This document shows positions 9,232-42,685 of a stretch of DNA of 64,000 bases, one piece after another. How positions within the stretch are numbered: the first letter of the stretch is position 1; each line of letters begins with the position of its first letter. The notes under the pieces were generated by a model. That model was not told the DNA's origin, did not search any database, and saw only the letters and a program-made list of their open reading frames with translations. Origin of the DNA: Pontixanthobacter sp. CEM42 (GTDB lineage Bacteria; Pseudomonadota; Alphaproteobacteria; Sphingomonadales; Sphingomonadaceae); the NCBI RefSeq assembly GCF_017812015.1, contig NZ_JADQTN010000001.1, positions 412,501 to 476,500 of the forward strand, in the 5' to 3' direction. The translations under genes were made by a program, and so were the position numbers.

Positions 9232-11541
9232 ATGGCCGCGAGTGATACTAAAAATTCCGATTCTGATCCCTTCGACGCGATTGTCGATGCACCGTTCGAT
9301 TCTGCGTTGTCGGAACGGTATTTGGTCTATGCCTTGTCGACGATTACCGCGCGCTCGCTGCCCGATCTGCGCGATGGGTTGAAGCCGGTTCACCGGCGCC
9401 TGTTGTGGACGATGCGGCAACTCAAGCTGGACCCGTCCAACACCTTCAAAAAGTCCGCCCGCGTCGTTGGTGAGGTTATCGGTAAATTTCACCCGCATGG
9501 CGATACGGCGGCTTACGATGCGATGGTTCGGCTCGCGCAGGACTTCTCGCTGCGTTATCCGCTGGTCGAGGGGCAGGGTAATTTCGGCAATATCGATGGC
9601 GATAATGCTGCGGCCTATCGTTACACCGAAGCGCGTCTGACCAAGACCGCGATGCATCTGATGCAGGGGCTGGACGAGGGCACTGTCGACTTCATCCCGA
9701 CCTATAATGGCGAGGAAGAAGAACCCGAGCTGATGCCGGGCCTGTTTCCTAACCTACTCGCCAATGGCACAAGCGGGATTGCAGTGGGCATGGCGACCAA
9801 TGTGCCGAGTCACAATGTCGCTGAGATTATCGATGCGACGCTGGAACTGATCGACAATCCGCATGTCGAGCATGAGCGGCTGATGGAGTTGTTCCACGGG
9901 CCTGATCTTCCGACCGGCGGCCTTATTGTCGATAGCCCGCAGATCATCTCCAAAGCTTACGAAACCGGGCGTGGGTCCTTCCGTATTCGCGGGCGCTTCC
10001 ATGCGGAGGAAGCTGAGAAGGCAGAAGACAAAGACGCGGGTATCGAGCGGCTCGGCGGCGGGCAATATCAGCTCGTGATCAGCGAGATCCCGTATCAGGT
10101 GCAAAAGGGCAAACTGATCGAGCAGATCGCGCAGCTGATCGCCGACAAGAAGCTGCCCATTCTCGAAGATGTCCGCGATGAAAGCGACGAGAATATCCGA
10201 CTGGTGCTGGTTCCGAAGAACCGCAATGTCGATCCCGAATTGCTCAAGGAATCGCTGTATAAGCTAACCGATCTGGAAACGCGTTTCGGCCTGAATCTCA
10301 ATGTGCTTGATGCCACGCGTACCCCACTGGTGATGGGTCTGAAGGAACTTCTCCAGAACTGGACAACTGCGCAGATCGAAATCCTGCGCCGCCGCACGCA
10401 GCACCGTTTGGACAAGATTGCTTCGCGGCTGGAACTGCTCGAAGGCTATATCATCGCCTTCCTCAATCTCGACCGTGTGATCGAGATTATCCGGACAGAG
10501 GATGAGCCGAAACCGGTGATGATTAAGGAGTTCGGCCTCAACGACCGCCAGGTTGAAGCTATCCTCAATATGCGCCTCCGCAGCTTGCGTAAGCTGGAAG
10601 AAATGCAGCTGCGCGATGAGAAAGACGCGTTGCTTATGGAGCAGGACGAGCTTGAGAAACTGCTCGGTTCACCCGCGCGCCAGCGTACGCGCCTGAAGCG
10701 CGATCTCGGGGCGTTGCGCAAGGAATATAGCGAAGACACCGATATTGGCCGCCGCCGGACGACCATCGCCGAAGCTGCTCCGACTGTCGAATTCAGCATG
10801 GATGCGATGATCGAGAAGGAACCGATCACGGTCGTGCTGTCGCAAAAGGGCTGGGTACGCGGCGCGAAGGGTCATGTCGATCTGGATACTGACGATCGCA
10901 AGGGCGACTTCAAATATAAAGAAGGCGATGCAGCAGCCTATGCAATTCATGCGCAGACGACCGACAAGCTGCTGATCGCGGTGGACAATGGCCGGTTCTT
11001 CACGCTCGGTTGTGACAAATTGCCCGGTGCGCGCGGCTTTGGTGAGCCGATCCGCAATACACTCGACATCGATGCCGAGACGCAGATTGTCGGTATCGTC
11101 GTTTACAAACCGAAGGGGCAACTGCTGCTCGCGGCATCGAACGGCAAAGGCTTCGCTGCCGAAATGGACGAGATGCTAGCCGAGACCAAAAAGGGCCGGC
11201 AAGTCGTCAATCTGAAAGGCGATGCTAAATTCGCGGTGATGCGCGAGATTGCCAAAGAGCATGACCATATTGCCGTGGTTGGCGATAACCGGAAACTGGT
11301 TGTGTTTAGTCTTGAAGAATTGCCGATCCTGGGGCGCGGGCAGGGCGTGATGCTGCAGCGGTACCGCGATGGCGGCCTGTCCGATGCAACGACGTTCACA
11401 CTGGAGGATGGCCTCAGCTGGGCGATGGGCGGCAAGGGCGACCGGACCCGTACTGAAGCCGAGATATGGCAATGGAAGGTCGCACGCGGTGCGGCTGGCC
11501 GATTGCCGCCGCAGGGTTTCCCCCGAGATAACAGCTTCTGA
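9232..11541 (+). CDS. parC: DNA topoisomerase IV subunit A
   Basis: 769 residues; the breakage-reunion subunit that works with ParE to decatenate daughter chromosomes. The active-site tyrosine is Y131 in [11 protein letters not shown], and the quinolone-resistance region is [20 protein letters not shown], with T92 and D96 at the places of E. coli ParC Ser80 and Glu84. A coiled-coil region (about 400-470) is followed by beta-pinwheel repeats in the C-terminal third. Length and the diverged C-terminal blades (no GyrA-box) favour ParC over GyrA. It is a single-gene unit with its own upstream gap. Confidence 0.93.
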
Positions 11542-11552
11542 CAATAGGTTCT

Positions 11553-11600
11553 AAAAACGAAAAAGAGGGCCAAGTGCGATTGCTCGCTCCTGACCCTCTT
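11553..11600 (-). terminator. Rho-independent terminator of the putative small RNA
   Basis: Minus-strand stem AAGAGGG/CCCTCTT (11594-11600 with 11563-11569) followed by a T-rich tail TTTTTCGTTTTT. The T-tract is only on the minus strand, so it ends a transcript coming from the helicase side and not parC. Confidence 0.7.
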
Positions 11601-11712
11601 CCGCGACCCGAAGGTCTCTGAAGCCGCGTGATGGCACGGCCGCAGAAGCACTTCAGGCATTCGGGAACCGCGCCACCACCTTAAGAGGGAGGAAGCGGCA
11701 GCGGGCGGTTCC
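11553..11712 (-). ncRNA. probable structured small RNA with anti-Shine-Dalgarno loop
   Basis: On the minus strand, four structures follow each other in the gap between parC and the helicase gene. First is a stem GGAACCGC/GCGGTTCC (11705-11712 with 11664-11671) whose loop contains CTTCCTCCCTC (complement of 11685-11695), able to pair with Shine-Dalgarno sequences. Second is a stem CTGAAG/CTTCAG (11651-11656 with 11618-11623). Third is GACC-TTCG-GGTC (11605-11616), an ultra-stable UUCG tetraloop only in this orientation. Last comes a Rho-independent terminator. No reading frame explains the region. The layout resembles alphaproteobacterial aSD-loop sRNAs (suhB/alpha-r14, cuckoo types), but I cannot assign a family. 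The 5' end and promoter are not clear. Confidence 0.6.
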
Positions 11713-11806
11713 GATACGGGGATTTCCTGATTGACCCTTACGTTAAGGGAAGCATTATTAAGCTAAGCTGAAGCAATAATAATTCAGCCTGCTATTCATC
11801 TATGTC

Positions 11807-13408
11807 TTACGACTGACGACGTCGTTGAGGGCGATTGCCACCACCTTGGCCACCTTTCGATGGACCTTTGCGGTGCCGCGGTTTCCCGCCTCCGGCTTGG
11901 CCTGCGCCTTGTCCGCCGCGATCATCGCGGCGTTTGGCGTTCACCACAGGCTTGGTAACCGGCCCCTTCTTGTGACTGATGGTCTTTGCACGGCCATAAG
12001 TCGGTTCGTCGCGTGTTTCACTGCCACGATTGCGCTGATCGCGATCTTCGCGGCTGCGATAATTGCCCTGGTCGGGACTGCGACCTTCGGCATCGCGCCA
12101 ATTGCGGTCGCGCGGTTGCTGAGGCTTCTTATTCTTTGGCTTGTTCTGGGGCTTGCCGCGACCACCGCCGCCACCTTTGCGAAAGCGAGCATTGCGGTCG
12201 TCGGGATTGCGTTCTGCACCAGAGCCTTTGCGTGCCGGAGCAGGCAATCCCTTGGCCTGGGCGATAAAGTCTTCGGGGATCGGAGCCGGAGTGAGTTTTA
12301 CACCCGTCAGCCGCTCGATATCGCGAATATAGGGCCGCTCGTCAGGTGCGACATAGCTTACTGCTAGCCCGCTGCGACCGGCGCGTGCTGTCCGGCCAAT
12401 ACGGTGGACATATTGCTCCGCCACGTTGGGAATTTCGAAGTTGAACACTGCGCTAACGCCGGGGACATCGATCCCGCGCGCGGCAATATCGGTCGCGACC
12501 AGAACGGGCACACTACCACGACGGAACCCGTCGAGCGCGCGGGTCCGCTGTGCCTGTGACTTGTTGCCGTGGATTGCGCCGGCATTGATACCAGCGGCGA
12601 CCAAATGGCGCACAACACGGTCTGCGCCATGCTTTGTGCGGGTGAACACTAACGCGGTTTCAATATCGCCATTCTCGATACCTTTGCGCAGGCTGATGGT
12701 TAGCAGCGCCTGCTTTTCTTTCTGGTCGATATAGGTGCTGAACTGGTCAACACGCTCAGCCGTGGTCGATTGCGGGGCAACTTCGACACGGACAGGGTTG
12801 TTGATGAAGCGCTTGCCAAGCTCGACAATGCTCTTTGGCATGGTTGCGGAGAAGAACAGGCTCTGACGCTGCTTGGGCAGCATGTTGGCAATGCGGATGA
12901 GCGGCTTGATAAAGCCGAGATCCATCATCTGATCAGCCTCGTCGAGAACGAAGATCTCGACATTGCTGAGTGACAGCGCGCGTTGCTCGCACAAATCGAT
13001 CAGACGGCCCGGTGTCGCAACGAGGACGTCGCAGCCAGGAACCAGCTTGCGTGCTTGTTGGCGCACTGGAAGGCCGCCGAAAACACATTGCACACTCAGA
13101 TCGAGGAAGCGCGAATAGTCGCGCATATTGTCAGCGATCTGCGCTGCAAGTTCGCGCGTGGGCGAAAGGATCAGCATCCGGCATGAAGCCGGTTTCCGCG
13201 CTTGCGGATTTTGCGCGAGGCGGTGAAGCGACGGCAGCGAGAACGCGGCGGTTTTGCCGGTACCCGTTTGTGCAACACCGATCAGATCGCGGCCATCAAG
13301 CAGAGCAGGAATCGAATCCCGTTGGATAGGGGTGGGTTCGGTATAGCCCTTCGTGTTCAATGCACGGAGGATAGGCTCAGCCAGGCCGAGTTTTTCAAAA
13401 TAAGACAT
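11807..13408 (-). CDS. DEAD-box ATP-dependent RNA helicase, RhlE-like
   Basis: 533 residues from the ATG at 13408 (MSYFEKLGLAEP). All helicase motifs are visible: the Q motif (YTEPTPIQRDSIPALL), Walker A AQTGTGKTAAF, PTRELAAQ, TPGRLIDL, DEAD, SAT, and HRIGRTARAGR of motif VI. The tail (about 385-533) is low-complexity, rich in Arg, Gly, Lys, Asn and Gln, as in RNA-remodelling helicases of the RhlE/CsdA kind. The upstream gap 13409-13652 (244 bp) has no gene and is long for a leader; cold-type leader control is possible but not shown by the sequence. Confidence 0.9.
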   Translation of the reverse strand: MSYFEKLGLAEPILRALNTKGYTEPTPIQRDSIPALLDGRDLIGVAQTGTGKTAAFSLPSLHRLAQNPQARKPASCRMLILSPTRELAAQIADNMRDYSRFLDLSVQCVFGGLPVRQQARKLVPGCDVLVATPGRLIDLCEQRALSLSNVEIFVLDEADQMMDLGFIKPLIRIANMLPKQRQSLFFSATMPKSIVELGKRFINNPVRVEVAPQSTTAERVDQFSTYIDQKEKQALLTISLRKGIENGDIETALVFTRTKHGADRVVRHLVAAGINAGAIHGNKSQAQRTRALDGFRRGSVPVLVATDIAARGIDVPGVSAVFNFEIPNVAEQYVHRIGRTARAGRSGLAVSYVAPDERPYIRDIERLTGVKLTPAPIPEDFIAQAKGLPAPARKGSGAERNPDDRNARFRKGGGGGRGKPQNKPKNKKPQQPRDRNWRDAEGRSPDQGNYRSREDRDQRNRGSETRDEPTYGRAKTISHKKGPVTKPVVNAKRRDDRGGQGAGQAGGGKPRHRKGPSKGGQGGGNRPQRRRQS

Positions 13409-13652
13409 AATAACTTTCAAATGTGCGCCAGACGGACTCCCAAAAACATCGAGAATCCGCGCGCAAGTAGGTCCTTACGGCGACCCAAGCGTGAAAAGGG
13501 AAGCATGCGATTAACGCAAATTCCGTGCATTGGTTGAGGGACTAAGCCCTTGCTTTGAAGGGGAAGTTCACGCTCACAACCAATTTCGCAGACGATTTCT
13601 GCGCCGGACGTTGAGGGGGATGTAGGAGCGCAAAGCTAAATAAGCAATGAAA

Positions 13653-42624: not shown

Positions 42625-42685
42625 AGCAACGCCCGCCCGGTTGATCGGACGGGCGAAACCCTGCGACCCTTGCGGGTGTTACTGA

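Follow-up and report, generated by a model that had tools for sequence, protein, structure and literature searches.

A candidate small RNA with a conserved anti-Shine-Dalgarno loop between parC and a DEAD-box helicase gene in Pontixanthobacter

The CcsR RNAs of Rhodobacter occur in tandem copies and carry anti-Shine-Dalgarno (anti-SD) loops. In Caulobacter, the alpha-R8 RNA SisA represses the mRNA of a TonB-dependent receptor through a core similar to the one described below (PMC12559287). Another RNA with an exposed C-rich sequence, GsrN, needs a sigma-EcfG promoter, and in Erythrobacter litoralis a gene resembling gsrN was reported not to be apparent (PMC5869019). We analyzed a window of 64,000 nucleotides from Pontixanthobacter sp. 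CEM42, in which a structured RNA lies on the minus strand (11712-11553) inside the gap between parC and a DEAD-box RNA helicase gene. We consider it very likely that this is a real, conserved, and structured small RNA (sRNA) gene. The 5′ end of the RNA is probably upstream of 11712, near 11731-11734, as predicted from a −10-like box at 11745-11740.

The minimum free energy (MFE) predicted for 11718-11553 was −88.1 kcal/mol, compared with a mean of −61.0 for shuffled sequences (z −6.2; 0 of 200 shuffles were as low). In seven homologues, z ranged from −3.3 to −8.5, and each sequence beat all 100 of its own shuffles. At −27.0 kcal/mol, the terminator hairpin ranked first among 19 hairpin-plus-T-run candidates in the window (the next was −19.8), and its T-rich tail is present on the minus strand only. 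By eye, no reading frame of 12 or more amino acids common to all seven homologues was listed, on which ground a coding function was rejected, in agreement with a preliminary description of this DNA that had found no encoded protein.

That description had also proposed four elements, namely two hairpins, a C(UUCG)G tetraloop hairpin taken as a cue to orientation, and a T-tailed intrinsic terminator. The first hairpin (SL1), the second hairpin (SL2), and the terminator are retained in our model, but the tetraloop hairpin is not. In the MFE structure of the window RNA, CUUCGGG pairs with CCUGAAG to form the foot of SL2, and the RNA has three hairpins rather than four because the UUCG bases belong to the 3′ arm of SL2. 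Only five of eight homologues have UUCG at the tetraloop position, whereas G007 has UUUG, L126 has UCCG, and L218 has a shortened CUCGG; pairing within SL2 survives through a G-U pair in G007 and through changes on both sides in L126, and the competing foot is 95.2% paired across seven sequences. A pseudoknot in which the SL1 loop pairs with the purine-rich arm of the terminator was also rejected, as each loop fitted its own arm no better than the arms of others (8 by 8, permutation p 0.63). TTCGGGTCGC was discarded as a general pre-terminator motif, being found at 14 genome places versus 17 in the reversed control and thus not enriched. Elsewhere in the window, at 42669 on the minus strand, GGGTCGCA is followed by a GC-rich inverted repeat in a context like that of the linker and terminator of the RNA, without a T run.

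Homologues were found in two genera. A DNA search of 60 genomes returned the window's own genome (G000) and one relative (G004, 73% identity). The parC gap was then compared in eight genomes of one genus, which is probably Pontixanthobacter (the nearest named parC is that of P. aquaemixtae, 91%); all three hairpins are present in six of them (G000, G001, G002, G004, G005, and G007), the G006 gap has the terminator only, and the G003 gap holds a gene for a 168-residue secreted protein. A first covariance model, built from the six sequences, gave matches at E 1 or better in 25 of 118 relatives, with full-length and strong matches only in the six. Applied to 80 parC loci, it recovered L114-L116, with scores identical to those of G007, G002, and G001, and one new homologue, L126, which was outside the model and was found independently at 81.6 bits. 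A second model that adds L126 was run with stricter filters on 298 genomes drawn as a sample from the family and matched 27 of them at E ≤0.01. Seven of these reach 55 bits, including a new full-length homologue at 55.5 bits (L218, genome G260) that is in neither model and was also found independently; G298 is apparently the genome that L126 comes from, as the two have the same score, and G002 was not among the listed genomes. The remaining 20 genomes scored below 40 bits. At the 12 whose place was read, the match in G006 was the pyrD locus and the others looked like pieces of SL2 and terminator or like coding tails; nine further weak matches flanking parC ended in coding tails plus a terminator. 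In total, we count eight homologues, six in one genus and two genomes in a second.

The preliminary description had named, beforehand, stem conservation and covariation in relatives as the check on a structured minus-strand RNA, and the outcome favors such an RNA. We used an alignment (A3) of seven related sequences that had been fitted to the model structure, and the counts therefore lean towards the model. Standard pairs occupied 85.0% of cells in this alignment versus 75.9% in shuffles, 22 of 44 pairs changed on both sides versus 11.1 in shuffles, and the covariation score was 0.461 versus 0.299; none of 500 shuffles reached the pairing, two-sided-change, or covariation value. When partners were slid by 1-3 columns, at most 59.8% of cells were paired, with 12 pairs changed on both sides. 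Two-sided changes affect 11 of 16 model pairs in SL1 (helices 1 and 2), and in the terminator (helices 5 and 6) they affect 7 of 14. In SL2, they affect two of nine pairs in the foot (helix 3, 95.2% of cells paired) and two of five in helix 4 (77.1% paired).

An anti-SD loop on the first hairpin, as originally suggested, was borne out: CCUCC is present in the SL1 loop of seven of eight homologues, including all six in the genus, and its bases are predicted to be unpaired in the window RNA (0.92-1.0); of the six genus RNAs, five are predicted to leave CCUCC open. Shuffling the letters of each genus loop gave a product of 2.6e-5 for CCUCC, a figure that treats related sequences as independent. 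The pattern GGGAGGAA-N2-10-ATG occurs at six genome sites versus one in the reversed control. Five of these sites precede genes for a DUF1761 protein, a TonB-dependent receptor (Pfam Plug), a cupin, and two proteins that no Pfam family matched; by eye, one of the two has several hydrophobic stretches and the other is lipoprotein-like. Because a GGGAGGAA site precedes a TonB-dependent receptor gene and SisA provides a precedent, envelope mRNAs are plausible targets of the RNA by analogy.

Direct repeats with an 11-bp period that replace a −35 box are typical of promoters served by OmpR-family activators. Seven of eight homologous gaps contain one such repeat, TCA-N8-T(C/A)A, with a −10-like box 11-14 nt downstream, and the promoter of the RNA is probably activated by an OmpR-family response regulator, as judged from these motifs. 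The repeat carries little information; it reads TCA-N8-TCA in three gaps and TCA-N8-TAA in four, and is missing from one. Rhodobacter CenR recognizes TGA-N8-TGA (PMC9275681); TCA-N8-TCA, as in three of the gaps, is the reverse orientation of this pattern. A LiuR-like reading of TTTACGTAAACGTCAA was set aside in favor of the putative −10 box. In a wider search, TTCAG-N6-TT(A/C)AG with a downstream TANNNT was found at six places in six of the eight genus genomes versus two in the reversed control. Four of the six places were read: one (L215; TTCAG-N6-TTCAG at G000:C2:372908-372941) precedes a gene for a Pfam M48 peptidase (E 9e-29), and the other three precede similar frames. Outside the letters fixed by the search pattern, the six-letter spacer is constant at five positions and variable at one.

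What computation shows is a conserved structure, its strand, the loop core, the promoter-like motif, and, in the second genus, an RNA independent of the gene upstream. We propose that the RNA would be a free-standing, trans-acting sRNA of about 180 nt in two genera of one family (Erythrobacteraceae/Sphingomonadaceae), whose own promoter is probably turned on by a response regulator of the OmpR family and whose end is set by its own terminator. The CCUCC of the SL1 loop would pair with GGAGG-type ribosome-binding sites and thereby block translation initiation on a set of mRNAs, most plausibly those for outer-membrane and other envelope proteins, while SL2 and the terminator may serve as a scaffold for stability or chaperone binding. 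Transcription, the regulator, use of Hfq, the targets, and the direction of regulation are what we infer in this proposal. We rate the full mechanism, from an OmpR-type regulator that turns the RNA on to an anti-SD loop that blocks envelope mRNAs, as evenly balanced between right and wrong, and any single target as less probable than that.

Several observations count against this proposal. The RNA is absent from the gap in two of eight genus genomes (G003 and G006), and between 11400 and 12000 a consensus scan gave no terminator. Two-sided changes are scarcer in SL2 (4 of 14 pairs) than in the other two hairpins. The L126 loop reads CUUCCCC and lacks CCUCC, three of the five core bases in G005 are predicted to be mostly paired (unpaired 0.06-0.16), and loop letters outside CCUCC vary between species, so targets may not be conserved. 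The GGGAGGAA search is a pattern count rather than a target test, and one of its six sites opens a frame of merely 30 amino acids. G002 has no TCA repeat at the common spacing. The M48-side box adds little, because its repeats were the search key and because it sits where an upstream reading frame ends, with the stop codon inside TANNNT; protein conservation may account for part of the constancy of the TTCAG boxes. Finally, no separate helicase terminator was seen by eye within the genus, where an inverted repeat in G005 lacks a T run, and the RNA could therefore also be cut from the helicase mRNA there.

This last point leads to a reading of the RNA as a structured 3′ untranslated region (UTR) of the helicase mRNA, which would protect or shorten the message and yield a small RNA by processing. 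The helicase gene ends 94 nt upstream of SL1 in the window, and none of the six genus gaps has a terminator in between by eye, but five of the six have the promoter-like motif between the helicase gene and SL1. In L126 and L218, moreover, the gene upstream encodes a small secreted protein and is closed by a terminator of its own, after which the RNA follows; the RNA therefore cannot be a helicase 3′ UTR in these genomes; by this arrangement, the RNA is a predicted transcription unit of its own in the second genus. We regard the 3′-UTR explanation as unlikely. It is somewhat more doubtful still that the gap simply holds a strong terminator region that folds by chance and has no regulatory function. 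The position between convergent genes would suit such a region, and G006 manages with a simple terminator and G003 with another gene. Nonetheless, SL1 is not needed for termination and yet has the largest share of two-sided pairs (11/16 versus 7/14 in the terminator and 4/14 in SL2), the loop core and the upstream motif are each kept in seven of eight homologues, and the T-rich tail is confined to one strand.

In the remaining alternative, the RNA would be a decoy, sponge, or partner whose conserved CCUUCGGGUCGC pairs with GCGACCCGAAGG in a candidate sRNA located beside pyrD. The 14-mer GCCCUUCGGGUCGC from SL2 and the linker was found at 37 places in 27 of 98 relatives versus 10 in the reversed control, 20 of the 30 places read have the same flanking block, in which the opposite strand bears a T-tailed terminator, and for both G000 and G004 the duplex energy over the whole length surpasses that of every one of 200 shuffles. 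Because the 14-mer had served as search key, however, its invariance is a product of construction, and SL2 pairing also explains the motif. For the pair of G007 itself the score is −84.7, and the best of 200 shuffles does better (−91.6). In the genome with L126, the sequence now reads CCCUCCGGGUCGC, yet the pyrD-side RNA retains its earlier letters and shows no compensation; because one RNA changed without the other, we give this pairing little weight and consider a partner role very unlikely. A trans-acting anti-SD sRNA remains our preferred explanation. In an extension of it, an envelope-stress two-component system of sphingomonads would drive the RNA and the M48 protease jointly, so that a single response regulator repairs the envelope and also shuts down synthesis of outer-membrane proteins through the anti-SD loop; the RNA would have arisen next to parC, its scaffold having no relation to alpha-R8, and would have reinvented the anti-SD strategy although the genome keeps alpha-R8 too. 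This extension is speculative and unlikely to be true.

Features of the parC/helicase gap and its flanking genes (window coordinates)
Feature	Coordinates	Strand	Basis or remark
parC, topoisomerase IV subunit A	9232..11541	+	Pfam DNA_topoisoIV, E 1.6e-137; convergent neighbor, outside the RNA
Intrinsic terminator, stem AAGAGGGUCAGGAGCG..., tail CTTTTTCGTTTTT	11553..11604	−	Fold and two-sided changes
Conserved GUCGC, end of SL2 and linker to terminator	11603..11607	−	GGGUCGC in 8/8 homologues
Hairpin SL2	11605..11658	−	Foot CCUGAAG/CUUCGGG holds the bases earlier taken for a UUCG tetraloop
Hairpin SL1, stem GGAACCGCCCGCTGCCGC / GGTGGTGGCGCGGTTCC	11664..11712	−	Fold and two-sided changes
SL1 loop UUCCUCCCUCUUAA	11681..11694	−	Anti-SD core CCUCC at 11692-11688
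Putative −10 box TAACGT	11740..11745	−	Counterparts TAACGT/TTACGT/TAATGT/TATAAA in 7/8 homologues
Direct repeat TTCAGCTTAGC/TTAATA = TCA-N8-T(C/A)A	11756..11772	−	Putative OmpR-family response-regulator site; 7/8 gaps
DEAD-box RNA helicase gene	11807..13420	−	Pfam DEAD and Helicase_C; co-directional, upstream, outside the RNA

The conserved pyrD-side candidate is an observation in its own right. Its neighbors, recognized by eye at seven loci, are pyrD on one side and a DUF885-type gene on the other, and it is found at G000:C2:400398-400411 and surroundings (L105) and at 19 other loci among L084-L112, the 20 family genomes having been found by an exact 14-mer. Its layout comprises a promoter-like block TGTCG(N)TT(N)CATACAAT, then GCGACCCGAAGGGCUC...GAGUUCCUC, and a strong T-tailed terminator, and no Rfam match was found at L082, L055, L105, or L090. 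The small secreted protein gene (weakly DUF2171-like, below the Pfam cut-off) adjoins parC in many genera, as at L039 in G003. A protein search did not find it in seven of the eight genus genomes; in this neighborhood, the adjacent protein gene is thus undetected in seven genomes and the RNA is present in six.

The preliminary description could assign the RNA to no known family, and the Rfam searches concur. Up to E 10, nothing matched near the locus except ctRNA_pGA1 (E 0.43, far below its cut-off, covering the terminator side); nothing reached the gathering threshold in the whole window, suhB had no match up to E 10 in 10500-12700, and six other homologue loci (L034-L038 and L126, with L218 left out) had no match. 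No description of this RNA was found in the open-access literature searched. The suhB/mmgR family (alpha-R8, RF00519) does score over its cut-off elsewhere in all eight genus genomes, in the window's genome at G000:C2:673410-673486 (L198, 51.9 bits) with the core AUCCUCUCCC; a block upstream of this alpha-R8 RNA, TTTTCGCACTTGCA, is common to the eight genomes.

The RNA resembles several described kinds. With alpha-R8, which includes SisA-D of Caulobacter, it shares a terminator and an anti-SD pyrimidine core, which reads UUUCCUCCCU in alpha-R8 and UUCCUCCCU in the window loop, but the alpha-R8 core is single-stranded after a weak hairpin in an RNA modeled at 77 positions (PMC12559287), whereas here the core sits in a loop on the strong SL1 stem, followed by SL2, for three hairpins in all. 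Their locations differ as well, as alpha-R8 is usually beside an N-formylglutamate amidohydrolase gene and the window RNA lies between a helicase or small-protein gene and parC. The alpha-r14/NfeR1/cuckoo RNAs likewise have three hairpins, an unpaired anti-SD motif, and sequence-variable stems, but each of their three hairpins carries CCUCCUCCC (PMC10746234), whereas CCUCC occurs once in the G000 gap, in SL1. The window scans gave no Rfam match to alpha-r14/cuckoo, with the presence of an alpha-r14 model in the library unchecked. CcsR of Rhodobacter is tandem, whereas the window's gap has a single copy. The likeness to GsrN is an exposed C-rich loop at the 5′ side (PMC5869019). A sigma-EcfG promoter, sought as GGAAC-N14-18-CGTT, was present in none of the eight gaps. 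Like a base-pairing anti-SD sRNA, the RNA exposes CCUCC within a conserved, structured, non-coding molecule, with L126 and G005 as exceptions. Given no Rfam match and these differences in motif, promoter, and location, the RNA resembles these kinds but belongs to none as tested, and it is probably a new, lineage-restricted family of the familiar anti-SD kind. It would add an sRNA family without an Rfam 15 match in an order for which we found few sRNA studies in the open-access literature, and its predicted promoter and single mutable seed make the whole circuit testable. If our reading is true, a CCUCC loop is carried on a scaffold distinct from that of alpha-R8, in a genome that holds both.
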